A stretch of DNA of 64,000 nucleotides from contig NZ_CXOP01000002.1 in NCBI RefSeq assembly GCF_001269345.1, positions 372,853 through 436,852 of the forward strand. The letters are read 5' to 3'. Under the pieces are notes generated by a model that saw only the letters and a list, made by a program, of their open reading frames with translations, searched no databases and had not been told where the DNA came from. The first letter of the stretch is position 1. Every line of letters starts with the position of its first letter. This document shows positions 42,309 to 51,474 of the stretch, piece by piece. A program made the translations under genes and the position numbers. This DNA comes from Limnohabitans sp. 2KL-27 (lineage in GTDB: Bacteria > Pseudomonadota > Gammaproteobacteria > Burkholderiales > Burkholderiaceae_C).

Positions 42309-42770
42309 TCATTTGATTTCGAAATCCAATGCTTTGACGCCTTGGCGGCCTTGCAGATCCTCAATGCTGATCAGAAGACGGTGCGAACCTTTGGGCAGGC
42401 TGGCTTCCTTGACGTTGATGCCCTCGGCAGTGACCTTGGCCGCGTTGATCAAGCGTTGCGTGATGTCAATGCGCAAACGACCGTACAAGACTTTGAATGT
42501 CTCTGGACGGACAACGCTGGAGGCCGCAGGCACAAACATCAACTGGATGGCCGTTGGAGAGACCACGGGCGTATCCAGTCTGGGGTGCACGATCTCGATT
42601 TGAGGTGCACCCGGCACGGCAGCCGTTTTGGCGGTCAATGGTTCTGCCGCACCCAAAGACGCCTGCATTTCCTGGACCGAGACGAGATCAAAAGCCTGTA
42701 CATGGAAGACCGATGCACACAGTCCCCAAGCCAGGACGGACGTTTGCAGCCATGAGCCCCAATGCATCAT
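42309..42770 (-). CDS. Small exported protein of the caspase cluster (paralogue of 45947-46381)
   Basis: The 153-aa product has a signal peptide ending near HVQAF, then a single domain of about 110 residues whose second half aligns with the gene product at 45947. Shared features are SPT at the domain start, an internal ID.A.IKFEYL / ..FKVLYGRL strand, then KGSH and a C-terminal GRxGxKxxxxxxK (EDLQGRQGVKALDFEIK versus RDSEGREGKTIIHLNAK). This looks like an Ig-like or cadherin-like fold. The start overlaps the OmpA gene's stop by 4 bases. It is the last gene of the operon. Function unknown. Confidence 0.8.
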   Translation of the reverse strand: MMHWGSWLQTSVLAWGLCASVFHVQAFDLVSVQEMQASLGAAEPLTAKTAAVPGAPQIEIVHPRLDTPVVSPTAIQLMFVPAASSVVRPETFKVLYGRLRIDITQRLINAAKVTAEGINVKEASLPKGSHRLLISIEDLQGRQGVKALDFEIK

Positions 42771-43258
42771 GGCAACAGGCTGATCCGCACGCGGCGGTTT
42801 TCGCTGGCCAGTGGCTTTTCGGGCACGAGCAATTCGCTGGCCCCTTTGCCTTCGGCTTGCAGGCGTTCGGCGGGCACGTTTTGACCCACCAGGTAGGCCT
42901 GCACCTCTGCCGCTCGGCGTGCCGACAGTTCTTGGTTGTAGTCGTTTTTGCCTTTGGCATCGGTGTGGCCTTCCACCTTGAATTTCAGCTGGGACAGGCG
43001 CTCGCTGTTCATGGCTTGTGCGAGGTTGTCCAGCAAAGACTTGCTGCTGGCCTGCAACCGGGCAGAGTCAAAGTCAAAGTTGATCGACAGATCCACATTG
43101 ACCGGTTTGGGCACCAGGTTGCGCAGACTGCGCGTGGTGGGTGGCGCAGGGGGGGTGAGCTTTTCGATGAGGTCTTCTTTGGAGGCCTGCTGAACCAGTT
43201 GGGCCGATGCGGATGACCCCATCAAGACGAATGCCAAAGCCAGGGTAAACCGTTTCAT
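42767..43258 (-). CDS. OmpA-family peptidoglycan-binding protein
   Basis: The 163-aa protein has a signal peptide (MKRFTLALAFVLMGSSASA) and a C-terminal OmpA domain with FDFDSARLQASSKSLLDNLA, the VEGHTDAKGKNDYNQELSARRA signature (near residue 93) and ENRRVRISLLP. This domain binds diaminopimelate in peptidoglycan. No beta-barrel or lipobox is present, so it is a periplasmic or wall-bound protein. The start overlaps the caspase stop (4 bases) and its stop overlaps the next start. It probably ties the caspase cluster to the cell wall. Confidence 0.88.
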   Translation of the reverse strand: MKRFTLALAFVLMGSSASAQLVQQASKEDLIEKLTPPAPPTTRSLRNLVPKPVNVDLSINFDFDSARLQASSKSLLDNLAQAMNSERLSQLKFKVEGHTDAKGKNDYNQELSARRAAEVQAYLVGQNVPAERLQAEGKGASELLVPEKPLASENRRVRISLLP

Positions 43259-45090
43259 AGAACTTCCTTCAGGGTGAGCAGTTTGGCACCAAAGCGTTCG
43301 GAGCCCTGCCCATCCTTGTTGTGAACCAAAAAGTTGATCAGCGCGGCGCGGCCACCGATTTCATTGAGGGCAAAAGTGAACGGGTTGGTGGCCGAGGGTT
43401 CGGCCATGGTCAAACGGTCAATCTGCCGTGGGCTTGAAGACACCATGACCAACAAATGGTCGGTGCCGGGGGGGCCTGCCGCTTCGAGTTGCCAGTCAGG
43501 TCGGGGCAGCTTGCGTGTTTGACCGGCCTTGATCCTGTTGTCTTTGTCGAGTCCATTGGGATAGAGCACGTAGAAACTCTTGCGGTCACTGCCCAACAAG
43601 ACCATATAAATGAACCCATCGTGGCTGGACTTGATGCTGAGGTCCAACGCGTCCTTGCCAATTTTCAGCACAGACTTGCTCAGTTTCACATCCAGCACGA
43701 TGCGGGGATCGCGTTGTTGTTCAATGTCGGCCAATGTGGCCAGTGACGCCAGCATTGGCTCGGGTGCCGGTGTTACAGGTGCCACACTTGCGGGAGCAGG
43801 GGCGGGAGCAGGTGCAGGTGCAGGTGCAGGTGCCGACTGGACCACCGGTGGTGTGGGTGGCTTGGCGGGTGCGGGCTCAGGAAGTTGGGCAGCTGGCGCA
43901 GCAGCGACGGGTCGTGGAGTTGACGGGTTGCTTGAGGGCGCTGGGCTGGCTGTAGATGGGGTAACAGGTGCGGTGGGTGTTGGCGGTGGCCGTGATGCGC
44001 TGGCGGATGTGGATGCAGGTGCGTTGGCGGTTGCAGTCGGTGCCGTGTTGGTCACCATCGCCATGGTCAAGGGCTGTGGCGGTGTGGGCGCAGGCACTGC
44101 GGCCGTGGGCGTTGGCGTGGCTGCAACAGGTGGGGCGGGCTGAGGTGCAGGTGCGGCGACCTGCGTTGGTGCGGGACGCTGCAATGCCACAGGAATCAGG
44201 TTCCGGTTGCCCGACACCGACACATGGTGCGGCGTCAGGTCTTTCACGCCCTTGAGTCTCAAGTCAATGAAGGCTTGAGCACACTGCTGGATTTCTGCGA
44301 GGGAGACTGCGCCCGATCCGTCCTTGTCAACCGCTTTGCCAAGCAGGCAGTCACGGACACCCTGGGTCGCCAGGCCCCCTTTGCCCGGTTCGTCAAAGCT
44401 GACCTCATCGGGCCGAGAGGAGGTGATTTGAACCACGTTTTCCTGCAAGGCACCCAAGCGTGTGGCCTCCCCCAGCAGACTTCGGGTTTTGAGGTTGGAG
44501 GGTTGGCTGCAGGCATCTGCGGCACTGCTGGCCTTGAACGTGAATTTGGGTTTGAATTCAATGCCGCCGATCGATCGAGTGGCCGCCTTGTTGGTGGTCA
44601 CGCCGCCAGAGTGACAGGCATCGATCATGGTGATGACTTTGTCTGCACTCGCGGTGATTTTTTGTGTGGCTTGTGCCAACTCGGCGTTGGTGATGGCTTG
44701 ACCGTCGTGGGTCAACAGGCCTTCGACGCACCCGTTGACTGTCGGGTCCCAATACCGGGTGCCGTGTCCAGAGAAGTAGATGAACGTGCGCCCACCATCG
44801 CGTGTGCGTTCACCCAATTGCCGAATTTCTTTCAGGATGTTTTCTTTGGTGGCGTCTTGGTCTCGCATCAAACGGATCTGATGGCCAGGAATGCCCATGG
44901 CCATGGCCATGCGTTTGGCGCTTTCCACATCGTGTGGCACACCTTCCAGCGTGGCTGCGCCAGTGCTTGGACTGTATTGACTCAGGCCAATGACCAGCGC
45001 AGAACGCAAAGCTGGCGTCTGCGTCTGAGATTGTGCGGGCCATGCCGTGAACAAGGCCAAGGCCAGCAAGAGGGAGTGGGGGTTTTTCAT
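43255..45090 (-). CDS. Exported caspase-fold (peptidase C14) protein with EF-hand and DUF4384
   Basis: The 611-aa protein has a Sec signal (MKNPHSLLLALALFTAWPAQS), then a caspase p20-like domain with catalytic His109 in YFSGHGTR and Cys159 in DACHSGG. A canonical EF-hand loop DKDGSGAVSLAE spans residues 255-266. A Pro/Ala linker of about 130 residues (about 304-440) contains PA repeats, and the C-terminal part (about 455-611) has the DUF4384 pattern (SSHDGFIYMVLLGSDRKSF, YVLYPNG). The start at 45090 removes a non-coding extension. Such proteins belong to the bacterial orthocaspases, cysteine proteases cutting after basic residues, often Ca2+-dependent. Periplasmic location and Ca2+ control are inferred. 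Confidence 0.88.
   Translation of the reverse strand: MKNPHSLLLALALFTAWPAQSQTQTPALRSALVIGLSQYSPSTGAATLEGVPHDVESAKRMAMAMGIPGHQIRLMRDQDATKENILKEIRQLGERTRDGGRTFIYFSGHGTRYWDPTVNGCVEGLLTHDGQAITNAELAQATQKITASADKVITMIDACHSGGVTTNKAATRSIGGIEFKPKFTFKASSAADACSQPSNLKTRSLLGEATRLGALQENVVQITSSRPDEVSFDEPGKGGLATQGVRDCLLGKAVDKDGSGAVSLAEIQQCAQAFIDLRLKGVKDLTPHHVSVSGNRNLIPVALQRPAPTQVAAPAPQPAPPVAATPTPTAAVPAPTPPQPLTMAMVTNTAPTATANAPASTSASASRPPPTPTAPVTPSTASPAPSSNPSTPRPVAAAPAAQLPEPAPAKPPTPPVVQSAPAPAPAPAPAPAPASVAPVTPAPEPMLASLATLADIEQQRDPRIVLDVKLSKSVLKIGKDALDLSIKSSHDGFIYMVLLGSDRKSFYVLYPNGLDKDNRIKAGQTRKLPRPDWQLEAAGPPGTDHLLVMVSSSPRQIDRLTMAEPSATNPFTFALNEIGGRAALINFLVHNKDGQGSERFGAKLLTLKEVL
43808..43831 (-). repeat. Hexanucleotide repeat in the Pro/Ala linker
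   Basis: Four exact copies of GCAGGT (on the + strand) occur in a row and encode Ala-Pro dipeptides in the caspase linker, with less perfect copies on both sides. Its length could vary by slippage without breaking the frame. Confidence 0.85.
44293..44328 (-). other. EF-hand calcium-binding loop coding segment
   Basis: Residues 255-266 of the caspase-DUF4384 protein read DKDGSGAVSLAE, with Asp, Asp, Ser, Ser and Glu at EF-hand positions 1, 3, 5, 9 and 12, Gly at 6 and Val at 8: a full match to the canonical Ca2+ loop. A helix follows (IQQCAQAFI); the preceding residues (TQGVRDCLLGKAV) suit an E-helix. No second EF-hand was found. Confidence 0.8.
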
Positions 45091-45119
45091 GAGATCAAGC
45101 GCATTCAAATGGGAGCATC

Positions 45120-45950
45120 TCATGGGCCTGTGAAAGCTTTGAGTCCGGAATAAAGGGCCGCACCAGCAGAGACCAGTGGCGCTGTGGCGGTGATCAGGCT
45201 TTGCACTTGGTTGGAGATTTCCGTGATCTTGAATTTTCCGGATGCATCGCGCGCCAGCAAAACCCGCAGGCTGATTTTGTTGCGCTGTTGGCGCGCCCAC
45301 CGGGCCATCAGATGGTGGGTCAAAAAGCCAGTGAAAAATGACAAACCAATGGCAGCGGTGTATTCCAGCGTTTCGCGCCAGTCTCGGGCGTTCTCGGGCC
45401 ACAGGGGCACGCCATCAAGCCGGGCCGTGATGGCCAGCATCAAGCCGACAGACAAAGCACCCACCAGCAAAGCGGCCAAGAGATGTGTGAACCCACCGAA
45501 GCCACTGCGACGCGCACATCCGAAGCCGGTGACTGCGGGCAGTGTGATGGTCAAGACACGCAGAAACAAAGGCGGGGCGTCGTAGACAAACAGCAAAATC
45601 CAGTGACAAAGACCCATGGTGGCGATGGTCAGGACGACCATGCCCAGCCAATGGGGCCAAGATCGACGGGGCGTGTCGGCTAGCGCATCATGCGGCGTTA
45701 AGGCTGAGGTGTTGTGAGTTTCAGCATAGCTCAGGGCAGCCGCCTGAATGTCTTGTGATTGCAGTTGGGTGAGCGCATGTGCTTGTTGCTGTGCCATGGA
45801 TTTGAGTTGCGCCACTTCATCGGCCAGCGTTTGCAACTGGAGCGCCAGAGGCTTGAACAGCACCAAATCCCGCGTGCAGTGGCTGCACACCGATGCCTGC
45901 ACTGGAACATCGCTCCAGCAATAGGGACAGTTGAACGTGGTGTGGCTCAC
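45120..45950 (-). CDS. Zinc-ribbon, coiled-coil membrane protein of the caspase cluster
   Basis: The 276-aa protein has an N-terminal zinc ribbon (Cys8-x2-Cys11-x10-Cys22-x2-Cys25: CPYC and CSHC), a coiled-coil stretch (LQTLADEVAQLKSMAQQQ, residues about 38-65), about five hydrophobic segments (100-225) and a cytoplasmic C-terminus. The start is GTG and overlaps the stop of the preceding gene (GTGA), giving translational coupling. No known enzymatic motif is seen. It may be the inner-membrane anchor or sensor of the cluster, but this is inference. Confidence 0.8.
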   Translation of the reverse strand: MSHTTFNCPYCWSDVPVQASVCSHCTRDLVLFKPLALQLQTLADEVAQLKSMAQQQAHALTQLQSQDIQAAALSYAETHNTSALTPHDALADTPRRSWPHWLGMVVLTIATMGLCHWILLFVYDAPPLFLRVLTITLPAVTGFGCARRSGFGGFTHLLAALLVGALSVGLMLAITARLDGVPLWPENARDWRETLEYTAAIGLSFFTGFLTHHLMARWARQQRNKISLRVLLARDASGKFKITEISNQVQSLITATAPLVSAGAALYSGLKAFTGP

Positions 45951-46381
45951 TTGGCGTTCAAGTGGATGATGGTCTTGCCTTCTCGACCTTCGCTGTCGCG
46001 CACCGTTACCCGGATCGGGTGCGTGCCAGCGGGCACGCTCGCCTGAGGCAATTCAAGCTGGTTGCCGCTCAAACCTGTTTTGAATCGGGCCGTCAGGTCG
46101 ACAAGGGGTTGTTTTAAGTATTCAAATTTGATGGAGGCGGGGTCGATTTTGGCGCCGCCTCGGGGCTCGAAATTCATTTTGAATGCAAAAGATTTGCCCG
46201 TCACTTCCGTTGGCGACAACAAGCTGATGCCGGGGCCCCGCGTGATGGCCCGCGTGGCAGGCACTTGGAGATTGGGGGCTTGTGACTCGGCCTCCGTGAT
46301 CAATGGGGTCTGCGCCATGGCACCCCAAGACAAGAGGGTCAGCATCAGGGCCATGACCGAGGTCGAGACAATGGAGCGCAT
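45947..46381 (-). CDS. Small exported protein, first gene of the caspase operon
   Basis: The 144-aa product has a Sec signal (MRSIVSTSVMALMLTLLSWGAMAQ), then a domain of about 100 residues rich in beta strands (SPTEVTGKSFAFKMNFEPRGGAKIDPASIKFEYL) and an ending VRDSEGREGKTIIHLNAK, likely Ig-like. It is a paralogue of the last gene of the operon (42309). The start is set at 46381 because the longer frame runs through the divergent promoter region. Function unknown; the two copies may be periplasmic ligands or adaptors. Confidence 0.8.
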   Translation of the reverse strand: MRSIVSTSVMALMLTLLSWGAMAQTPLITEAESQAPNLQVPATRAITRGPGISLLSPTEVTGKSFAFKMNFEPRGGAKIDPASIKFEYLKQPLVDLTARFKTGLSGNQLELPQASVPAGTHPIRVTVRDSEGREGKTIIHLNAK

Positions 46382-46508
46382 GTTGGGTGTTTCTCGTCTT
46401 CGAGTGGTGTATACCGGATCATCAGTGTAACAATTGGTACGGTTGATGCGCAGACGTGCTTTGCCGAGTCTGCCAAACCATGAGTGCCAAGAGATTTCAG
46501 GAATAAAC

Positions 46509-48494
46509 ATGCCGACCATTTGTTGTGCCAAGCCAGCTGCTTTCACACCCACCCATTTGACTTTCAAATCCATACGCCGTTTGTTCTGGGTGTTCCTTGG
46601 GCTGATGGTTTGTGGGGCGCTTCCTGCGATGGCCCAGCCTGTCAAGGGTTCTGTCTACAAGGACTTCTTGCCCATGGGGTCGGGTGCCAGTGTGGCTTTG
46701 CCAGAGGGTGCATGGGAAACGACCCACATCAGTTCGTTGGATTATCCAGGAACCAATTGGGAGGTTTACACACTCAAAAACCAACAAGCCGACGCGAAAG
46801 TGCCTTTTTTGGTCGTTCGCCAAACAACCACAACGGGGCGGTGGGGCAATACGAATTGTTTGTCAGCTGCGCCAACTCAATTCATGGTCAATGAGCATGG
46901 CACCACCAGCAGCCAGACCTTGAATAAATGCTCCAGGATGTTTGCATTCAACTTCGACAACTGGAGGACATTGAACTGGGCTGATCAAAATGGCAAAAAA
47001 TGGTGGTCAGGCGCACTGCAGGGCCTTCCGGAAAAACTGGGCAGATCCGGGTCCAGCATTTTTCAAGTGGAGTTGACCGTTCAGCAATTCAATGGAAAGA
47101 ACCTGCGCATCGATGCATTTGTTTTGCCACCCAAAGGCATGACGGCGGGCAAATTCAGGGACGATTTCAGAGCCGGTCAGGTTTTGGCTGAGCATCAGAT
47201 CTTGTCGGGCTGGACCTCGATTTACATCGAGTCCATGCAGCAAAGTTTTTTCAACAAAAAACCGCAAGCCATCATGGCATTGGCCTATCCGGTCAACACT
47301 GGAAGTCCCAATCCAGCGGTAGTCTCCGACACCCAAATGGCAGCAGCCATGCCTGCCACCGAAAACACAGACTGGGACCTCATAGACAAAGAGCGCGATC
47401 AACGTACTCGGGAAATTCTTCGCGAAATGGAAACTGCAAGCAACAAGCCACCTGCAGCCCAGCCTACCGCCTCGACACGCCCTCCGGTTGTTGCCGCTCT
47501 GGATTCGGTGAAGCCCGCACCTTTGCCCCCGTCTAAGCCCGCTGCAGCCTTGCCTGCAGCGGCTCAGGCCCCCGTTGCTGTGGCAGACAACTCTGCCCAG
47601 CTGCGTCTTGAGCAAGAACGCCGCGCCATGGATGAGGAAAAGCGCAAGATGGCGCAGCAGCTGGAAGCCATGACCCAGATGCTGGCCAAACTCCAACAAG
47701 AAAATGCGGCCGCCGTTGCTGCAGCAAAAGCCAAGGAGGTGGCCGCTGCAAAGCCTGAGCCACCAGCCCAACCCCGTGAGCCGGTGACCTATGCCAACCG
47801 CAAGGCCTTGGTGATTGGCAACGATCTTTACACGCATGTGCCCAAGTTGAACAACGCAGGCGCTGATGCCGATGCCATGGCCAAGTCCCTGGAGGCGGTC
47901 GGTTACAAGGTCTTCAAGCACCTGAACTTGGACGAAAAGAAATTCAAGCAGGCCATTCGGGACTTTCGTCAAAACCTCAGTGGCGGCGACGAGGTGCTCT
48001 TTTTCTACGCCGGTCATGGCGTGCAACTGGGCAATGCCAACTACTTGTTGCCCACCGATGTGCAAGGCGACCAGGAAGACCAAGTCAAAGACGATGCCAT
48101 CTTGCTGCAAAAGGTGCTTGACGATTTGGAAGAGAAAAAAACCAAGTTTGCCTTGGCCGTGATCGATGCTTGCCGCGACAACCCTTTCAAGAGCAAAGGC
48201 CGCGCCATCGGTGGACGGGGCTTGGCACCCACTTCGGCTGCGACCGGTCAGATGATCATGTTCTCAGCGGGCTCCGGCCAGCAGGCACTTGACCGATTGG
48301 GTGACAACGACAAAGAGAAAAATGGTCTTTTCACTCGGATTTTTGTCAAAGAAATGATCAAGCCCGGTCTTTCGGTGGACCGTGTCTTGCGCAATGTCCG
48401 CAATGAGGTGGTTCGTTTGGCCCGTTCGGTGGGACACGAGCAAACGCCTGCGCTCTATGACCAGGCCATTGGCGAGTTTTATTTCCGACAGTGA
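46509..48494 (+). CDS. Exported caspase-fold protein with novel N-terminal domain and coiled coil
   Basis: The 661-aa protein has a long N-terminal signal (RRLFWVFLGLMVCGALPAMAQ, cut near residue 42). An N-terminal domain of about 210 residues (45-255) with tryptophans and four cysteines matches no family I know. A Pro/Ala linker and a coiled coil (LRLEQERRAMDEEKRKMAQQLE, about 355-400) follow. The C-terminal caspase p20 domain has NRKALVIGNDLY, His503 in FFYAGHGVQ and Cys555 in VIDACRDNPF. It diverges from the five-gene operon, 127 bases away. Both active-site residues are present, so it is predicted active. Confidence 0.86.
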   Translation: MPTICCAKPAAFTPTHLTFKSIRRLFWVFLGLMVCGALPAMAQPVKGSVYKDFLPMGSGASVALPEGAWETTHISSLDYPGTNWEVYTLKNQQADAKVPFLVVRQTTTTGRWGNTNCLSAAPTQFMVNEHGTTSSQTLNKCSRMFAFNFDNWRTLNWADQNGKKWWSGALQGLPEKLGRSGSSIFQVELTVQQFNGKNLRIDAFVLPPKGMTAGKFRDDFRAGQVLAEHQILSGWTSIYIESMQQSFFNKKPQAIMALAYPVNTGSPNPAVVSDTQMAAAMPATENTDWDLIDKERDQRTREILREMETASNKPPAAQPTASTRPPVVAALDSVKPAPLPPSKPAAALPAAAQAPVAVADNSAQLRLEQERRAMDEEKRKMAQQLEAMTQMLAKLQQENAAAVAAAKAKEVAAAKPEPPAQPREPVTYANRKALVIGNDLYTHVPKLNNAGADADAMAKSLEAVGYKVFKHLNLDEKKFKQAIRDFRQNLSGGDEVLFFYAGHGVQLGNANYLLPTDVQGDQEDQVKDDAILLQKVLDDLEEKKTKFALAVIDACRDNPFKSKGRAIGGRGLAPTSAATGQMIMFSAGSGQQALDRLGDNDKEKNGLFTRIFVKEMIKPGLSVDRVLRNVRNEVVRLARSVGHEQTPALYDQAIGEFYFRQ

Positions 48495-48582: not shown

Positions 48583-50451
<1,869 letters not shown>

Positions 50452-50473
50452 GACTGGCTCCAAGTTTAAAAAT

Positions 50474-50513
50474 CGTTTTTTCAAAGTCCCTGTGCAGGGA
50501 CTTTGAAAAAACG
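50474..50513. repeat. Perfect 19-bp inverted repeat in the pckG leader
   Basis: Arms 50474-50492 and 50495-50513 are exact complements with a 2-base centre. In the pckG direction the hairpin is followed by ATTTTT and then the ribosome-binding region (TTGGAG) and ATG 22 bases on. It could be an operator, a cruciform or an RNA attenuator/stability hairpin. Confidence 0.85.
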
Positions 50514-50670
50514 GCTGTAGGGCTGAGATACTGAGGGTCATGGCCGCACAAAAAGGACGGCTGTAACCACGTGGTAACTGGCGGGTCTCGATTTTAGGGA
50601 GACTGCTGCTTGTGTGCCTGTCAGCTGGCTTGAAAACCCCTTTATATCTATGCAAAAGATGCATGACGTT

Positions 50671-51474
50671 ATGCGAATCCTGAGGGGTGGTGCACTCGGC
50701 GCAGGTCGGCGTCATTGGATGATGGCAGTGGGGGCTCTTTCTTTGGCGGCTGCCTGGAAGACGCAGGCGCAAGCTCCGGTGCGCATCAAAATAGCCGCCG
50801 CCAGCAATCTGAAGTTTGTACTGGCTGACTTGGCGAGCCAGTACAGGCAACAAACTGGAGTTCAGGTGGATGTGAATCTGGGCGCATCGGGCAATCTGGC
50901 GCGGCAGATCTTGCAGGGCCTGCCGGTCGAGCAATTCATCTCGGCCGACGAGGCTTGGGTGGCCGAGTTGGCCAAAACCGGACGCACCCTGGACGCAGGG
51001 CAACGCTACGCCACGGGGCGCTTGGCCCTGATCGTGCCCAAAAATTCAGCACTGCCGCTGGCCCAAGGCTTGGCGGCGGTGGTGCGCGCCATGAAGCCGG
51101 GCGACAAATTCGCCATCGCCAACCCGGCTTTGGCCCCGTATGGCGTGGCGGCCGTTGAGGCTTTGCTGCGCGCAGGGGTTGGGCCGCTGCCGGCCGATCG
51201 CCAAGTGCTGGGTGACCACATTGGTCAGGCCACCCAGTTTGTGGCCACCGGTGCGGCGCAGGCAGGACTGACTGCGCTGGCGCTGGCCCAAGCCCCCGAC
51301 TTCGCCCGAAGCTTGCAGGTCTTGCCCTTGTCCGCCCACTTGCACGCCCCCCTGCACCAGCGCATGGCGCTGCTCAAGGGCGCAAGCGTGACGGCCGCAG
51401 ATTGGCACCGGTTTTTGCTCAGCCCGCCAGCGCAAGCGGTGTTTGTGCAGCACGGTTACGCCTTGCCGCAATAA
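50671..51474 (+). CDS. modA: Molybdate ABC transporter, periplasmic binding protein ModA
   Basis: The 267-aa protein has an export signal with RR ([17 protein letters not shown], cut near AQA), followed by the ModA start [30 protein letters not shown] (oxyanion-binding serines) and [12 protein letters not shown]. ModA binds molybdate or tungstate for ModBC. Starts at 50650 or 50614 are also in frame; none has a clear ribosome-binding site, so the N-terminus is uncertain. It is first in modABC. Confidence 0.9.

Follow-up and report, generated by a model that had tools for sequence, protein, structure and literature searches.

Described systems and the Limnohabitans cluster

A C14 domain with a His/Cys dyad is common to the metacaspases and orthocaspases and to two proteases, CASA and CASB, that lie together in a cluster of six genes in Limnohabitans sp. 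2KL-27. We analyzed this cluster in a 64,000-nucleotide stretch of the genome (contig NZ_CXOP01000002.1, positions 372,853 to 436,852), referred to here as the window, from whose first nucleotide all positions are counted. The 2.97 Mb genome has two Peptidase_C14 genes, both in this cluster, and they are accompanied by genes for an OmpA-domain protein (OmpA), a membrane protein (ZR), and two Ig-like proteins (X1 and X5). Our tentative reading is that the cluster encodes a basic-specific, caspase-type module of the cell envelope, made up of two units, that would process itself and cut its co-encoded partners.

Several elements of the cluster have precedents. In the parts compared, a 2012 paper on metacaspases tallies 217 metacaspase operons, 14 of them with OmpA, and has metacaspase proteins with Sel1 and CHASE2; it lists operons with multiple metacaspases only for Alphaproteobacteria, Bacteroidetes, Cyanobacteria, and Deltaproteobacteria, unlike the present cluster (PMC3501461). 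Similarly, the compared parts of PMC6426788 describe archaeal orthocaspases with EF-hand and Ig-like domains and place DUF4384 in an alphaproteobacterial clade. The X proteins, the two-unit layout, the exchange with CHAT proteases, and the linker motif reported below were not found in these two papers as far as they were compared. No description of the six-gene set was found in the literature among the matches listed, and the operon tables in the supplement of PMC3501461 may hold a relative.

Other systems are similar to the cluster in a more limited way. The only NCBIfam match of CASA and CASB was to the EACC1-associated caspases (NF047832); the scores of 44.0 and 48.9 bits fall far short of the 140 required, and neither protein can be assigned to that family. 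The BiofilmReg operon of Burkholderiales has a CHASE2 sensor beside a peptidoglycan-binding protein, together with a histidine kinase and a response regulator; the main text of its description (PMC5192318) uses neither caspase nor OmpA as a term, and Pfam searches of the six cluster proteins found no counterpart of the response regulator, LysM-FecR protein, or CHASE2 histidine kinase by which the available part of that paper defines it.

Two caspases of different kinds and their partners

All six open reading frames (ORFs) are open. The minus strand carries X5 (45947..46381), ZR (45120..45950), CASA (43255..45090), OmpA (42767..43258), and X1 (42309..42770), and CASB lies on the plus strand (46509..48494). 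An earlier note on this DNA had described a six-gene cluster with 4-base overlaps, a single 29-base gap, and a second caspase diverging 127 bases away. This description was borne out: there are three 4-base overlaps within the minus-strand genes, the gap of 29 bases is between ZR and CASA, and the distance from CASB to X5 (46382..46508) is 127 bases, provided that CASB starts at ATG 46509. No sigma-70-like site was found in this 127-base region.

Pfam confirmed the domains that had been proposed, namely C14 in CASA and CASB, DUF4384 in CASA (43429..43668, minus strand, E 3.6e-14), where it follows a Pro/Ala linker, and the OmpA domain in OmpA (PF00691, E 1.9e-22). The dyads also lie where the earlier note had placed them, at His109 and Cys159 of CASA (44764..44766 and 44614..44616, minus strand) and at His503 and Cys555 of CASB (48015..48017 and 48171..48173, plus strand). 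The motifs are kept in relatives, with the His motif in 86 of 86 CASA sequences and the Cys motif in 81 of these; both motifs are found in 81 of the 83 CASB ORFs, a set that was not dereplicated. We predict that both proteins are active proteases. Signal peptides were assessed by eye only and are apparent in both caspases, in keeping with the earlier proposal that they are exported; OmpA, X1, and X5 are exported-looking on the same basis.

Two other proposed features stood in part. The EF-hand of CASA is present as a 12-residue EF-like loop, DKDGSGAVSLAE (residues 255–266; 44293..44328, minus strand), whose pattern occurs in 80 of the 86 CASA sequences, but the Pfam match (E 0.067) was below cut-off. 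Likewise, the N-terminal zinc ribbon of ZR, which is followed by a coiled segment, about three hydrophobic segments, and a C-terminal tail, has four Cys that are invariant in 9/9 sequences but scored below the Pfam cut-off. X1 and X5 have no match in Pfam or NCBIfam at E 0.1. That they are paralogues, as had been suggested, is supported by searches in which either one retrieves the other, albeit as a distant relative. In its structure model (mean pLDDT 87), X1 begins with a signal peptide and a short helix, after which a linker modeled with less certainty leads to a beta sandwich.

Judged by their sequences, CASA and CASB represent different kinds of caspase, the first metacaspase-like and the second MALT1-like. 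The C14 domain of CASB resembles MALT1 in sequence and fold and is nearest to it among solved structures, and CASB is a candidate paracaspase. By alignment only, the acidic S1 residues of the basic-specific C14B subfamily are present: D434 and D534 of CASB align with D365 and D462 of MALT1, and D54 and D157 of CASA are invariant in 14/14 sequences. CASB differs from MALT1 in being bacterial, exported-looking, and fused to an N-terminal domain (NTB) and a coiled coil; the death domain and Ig architecture of MALT1 was not found in it, C14 being its sole Pfam domain above cut-off. CASA is similar to the plant metacaspases AtMC4 and AtMC9 in the p20 region. The acidic EDDD stretch of AtMC4, which we take to be its Ca2+ site, has no counterpart in aligned CASA, where the EF-hand-like loop comes later; the CASA profile has no acidic cluster at the AtMC4 position and in this respect differs from the type II metacaspases.

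The second C14 protein varies in its N-terminal part among loci, where NTB, Sel1 repeats, or M23-type domains are found. C14 proteins with an M23-type N-terminus stand with a CASA–OmpA–X cluster in two loci (L076, 1492–9673, and L077). One of two such L076 proteins scanned matched Pfam M23 (E 2.3e-17). Another genome of the same genus (G007) has seven CASB matches, which suggests an expansion of C14 proteins.

The composition of the cluster bears on whether it could be a set of digestive proteases acting on proteins or polymers in freshwater, in the envelope or outside the cell, with OmpA as an anchor. Extracellular protein degradation by betaproteobacterial metacaspases has been speculated upon (PMC4933709, in the part available), and the flanking genes that were scanned are metabolic, transport, and regulatory. 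However, C14B enzymes cut after basic residues according to the part of PMC4357240 available, which would not suit broad digestion, and the X, ZR, or CHASE2 partners and the variable N-terminal parts look regulatory. We consider a digestive role unlikely.

Recurrence of the gene set

The six-gene divergent layout is present in 6 of 36 genomes of the genus, as mapped in the fetched regions and counting the window genome (the other five are L066–L070), and pieces or variants of the cluster occur in others (e.g., G033, and G008, where it is split over contigs). L066, L067, and L068 retain an EamA flank, and neither the EamA nor the LysR flank was found in L069 and L070. A wider survey with a CASA alignment confirmed 178 stretches, of which the 80 best were retained (79 loci, L101–L179), so that its counts lean to close relatives of the window CASA. 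Among these stretches the closest named relatives at the CASA locus were Limnohabitans strains, and the taxa include Polynucleobacter, Rhodoferax, Curvibacter, Polaromonas, Rubrivivax, and a Nevskiaceae metagenome-assembled genome (MAG). By manual reading, CASB, two X genes, ZR, CASA, and OmpA occur together in 14 of the 79 loci. Five of these 14 are not named Limnohabitans (L106, L114, L122, L160, and L165); of these five, L122 alone has the divergent order, and the other four are rearranged.

Partner frequencies were counted in the 46 loci that have 5 kb or more of flank in each direction, 33 of the 79 being excluded for a short flank. OmpA was found in 42, X in 37, a second C14 protein in 29, CHAT in 13, and either C14 or CHAT in 39. 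The earlier note would have taken co-occurrence of all six families in distant genera as support and had named as contrary outcomes independently scattered families or a single-strain arrangement with inactive dyads. The set does recur, and these outcomes are contradicted, by the loci just described, by the conserved dyad motifs, and by the partner frequencies.

Strong matches to X are uncommon, occurring in 15 of 399 genomes of the order and, among 369 genomes of the class, in one besides the window's own. Of the 19 strong X genes from the order-wide search, 18 had a C14 or CHAT gene no more than 7 kb away. These include L190, counted on the strength of an N-terminal piece of CASB where the contig ends, and L181, counted on a weaker CHAT match. 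The one remaining gene, L183, comes from a contig of 7 kb. A protease was also near 105 of 108 X genes when mostly CASA-fetched loci were counted, but these were not dereplicated and the order-wide figure is the one we rely on. Because the set and its parts recur together, we consider their co-occurrence to be beyond chance. One further genome (G365) has a weak X match (E 2.9e-4).

Two observations concern distant lineages. A Cytophagales MAG (L128) has an OmpA–CHASE2–C14–CASA set whose sequences fall among those of Burkholderiales in the tree, and this may represent a transfer or a mis-binned contig. In L161 (6829–7359) and L194 (6623–7231), exported-looking proteins of ~180–200 amino acids, alike by eye, adjoin the CASA units.

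The patchy presence of the cluster would be compatible with an anti-phage or programmed-death system, and clan-CD proteases are active in other bacterial conflict systems. When the six cluster proteins were scanned with PADLOC, its generic caspase model matched CASA and CASB. The other matches were ZorB to OmpA, by the shared MotB/OmpA domain and with no ZorA match in the six proteins to indicate Zorya, and a weak match of LmuB to ZR (E 0.018). In addition, nothing defence-like was seen among the flanking proteins put through Pfam, three of the five other genomes with the six-gene layout retain the EamA side, and the components look exported. A defence or death function is quite improbable on this evidence.

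Two separable units and exchange of the protease

The earlier note had treated the six genes as one compact unit. The compact cluster is real; it is, though, composed of two separable units, as seen from the contexts of the two X types and of the proteases. The first unit is CASA, OmpA, and X1, and the second is X5, ZR, and a second clan-CD protease, which is CASB here and a TPR-CHAT protease elsewhere. Among distinct X sequences in the loci, 52 of 55 of the X1 type are beside CASA or OmpA and 33 of 35 of the X5 type are beside ZR. In other families of the order, X–ZR pairs without CASA adjoin a TPR-CHAT protease (L180, L184, L185, and L186), which in L185 had both CHAT and TPR confirmed by Pfam, and in L180, L184, and L185 has an apparent signal peptide by eye. 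The window cluster has no such protease. CHAT proteins also join the CASA unit in L105 and L120, and L106 has both CHAT and C14. A quick tree built from 86 CASA rows implies at least seven changes between C14 and CHAT as the second protease (rows with both left out). ZR is subject to replacement as well: CHASE2 occupies its place in another branch, and among the 46 loci ZR was found in 15, CHASE2 in 17, and both in none. In L139 and L140, CASA–X is followed by a run of two to three genes of the TPR-CHAT type, which suggests a local expansion.

Basic residues in the linkers of the partner proteins

OmpA, X1, and X5 all keep a basic residue in the linker that precedes the folded domain. Our X set had 187 distinct sequences, drawn from the 120 listed of 436 database matches and from the loci. 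Lys or Arg was present in 120/120 X1-like sequences (K48 in the window X1; 42627–42629, minus strand), and Arg-Gly-Pro in 67/67 X5-like sequences, mostly as TR[AG]ITRGP (TRAITRGP, residues 43–50, in the window X5; 46232..46255, minus strand). The cluster OmpA resembles the X proteins in its build, with a short N-terminal segment, a TR[SG]-hydrophobic..RN motif, a linker of variable length, and the domain. In the window this motif is TRSLRN (residues 42–47; 43118..43135, minus strand). The pattern R[SG]-hydrophobic..RN occurs in 57 of 60 OmpAs within 3 kb of CASA. In a control sample of 37 loci (7/7 OmpA matches of the window genome and 30 of the 88 from 12 other genomes), it was present in 7/7 cluster OmpAs and 0/30 other OmpAs.

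The caspases themselves have similar motifs. In CASA, TR[SGA]-hydrophobic lies in a loop 8–15 residues past the catalytic Cys, and in the window it is TRSI (residues 171–174; 44569..44580, minus strand), a candidate self-processing site. After dropping the five of 86 rows that lack the Cys pattern, the strict form [TS]R[SG][LIMVF] was found in the 24-residue loop of 60 of 81 sequences, compared with an expectation of 0.03 per loop calculated from the remainder of the proteins, and a loose form in 79 of 81. In CASB, the loop after the catalytic Cys has two Arg at a similar place (RAIGGRG; 48201..48221, plus strand), both invariant in the 54 rows of alignment A6. Arg-Gly in X5 fits part of the MALT1 consensus LXP/SR↓G (PMC4659944; the arrow marks the cut).

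Taken as docking or pseudo-substrate contacts, these basic residues could mean that the X proteins are Ig-like regulators acting in trans on the clan-CD proteases, as inhibitor, chaperone, or activator, in a role like that of MALT1 Ig3. This is the main rival if the motifs are docking sites, and we rate it as possible but doubtful, as it leaves unexplained the basic linker motif of OmpA that resembles CASA's own loop, and X has no sequence relative among solved structures.

A proposed self-processing envelope module

The envelope protease module is the simplest account that covers the co-conservation, the protease exchange, and the basic linker motifs. In this model all cluster proteins would be exported except ZR, a predicted membrane protein, and an envelope signal would activate a protease. 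For CASA this signal may be Ca2+, and CASB or CHAT may respond to a ligand of their variable N-terminal part. The activated protease would process itself at R-[SGA]-hydrophobic in the loop after the catalytic Cys and would then cut after Arg or Lys in the linkers, at TR↓SL.RN in OmpA, TR↓AI or ITR↓GP in X5, and AK↓ in X1. With these cuts, the OmpA or Ig-like domains would lose their N-terminal helices, and tethering or signaling at the envelope would change.

A more elaborate version is a periplasmic caspase cascade, in which a Ca2+-responsive metacaspase-type protease and a paracaspase- or CHAT-type protease are linked genetically to the proteins they would cut. The self-processing signal would be present in OmpA and X, and cutting would release conserved N-terminal peptides and free or tie the peptidoglycan link. 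Such a cascade is a rather speculative prospect; if true, it would amount to an initiator/executor-like pair with a defined set of orthocaspase substrates in the envelope.

Several points weigh against the envelope module. Activity, cleavage, export, and expression are all predictions. Of the 46 loci, nine are without X, four without OmpA, and seven without a second protease, and the ZR versus CHASE2 difference is one deep split on the 86-row tree. R-[SGA]-hydrophobic is short and was picked after looking, the X1 site is without the TR[SG] form, and conserved basic residues are also found within the Ig domain of X. A looser OmpA pattern over a shorter stretch occurred in 60/69 OmpAs near CASA and also in 4/9 far from it, some of these four being cluster-type. 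The wider CASB loop pattern was present in only 46 of 83 CASB ORFs. The residue after the Arg co-varies between CASA loop and OmpA linker (Fisher p 0.0007), but this represents only three independent pairs on the tree. Finally, an Arg-Gly bond outside the LXP/SR context was left uncut according to the part of PMC4659944 available. Because X5 is without the Leu and Pro/Ser before the Arg of the MALT1 consensus, our confidence in self-processing and cutting of partners is slightly lowered.

With respect to the earlier interpretation, the repeated exported-looking set, the intact dyads, OmpA, and the EF-hand-like loop hold, whereas the two units, the exchange with TPR-CHAT and CHASE2, the two caspase kinds, and the basic linkers had been missed; the sensing of envelope or calcium state that it proposed is a putative role. 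Outside the cluster, the GTP-dependent PEPCK ORF that adjoins CASB (48583–51003) has a 5' end ~190 residues beyond the family model, and its true start probably lies internally.

Significance

To our knowledge, few natural substrates have been identified for bacterial orthocaspases. In this cluster, candidate substrates are encoded together with the proteases, and the exact predicted cut sites recur across related genera and are absent from the 30 other OmpAs checked. Because the candidate substrates and predicted sites lie in the same cluster, the substrate question reduces to a simple in vitro cleavage test. Operons of metacaspases with OmpA were known before; what is new, from comparison of the sequences, is that OmpA, X1, and X5 have basic linker residues resembling the proteases' own loops. 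The data also connect proteases of the metacaspase-like, MALT1-like, and CHAT kinds, which would be partners in, or interchangeable components of, a single putative envelope module. Overall, the related sets with the same partners in many relatives suggest an undescribed protein-cutting system of the bacterial cell envelope.

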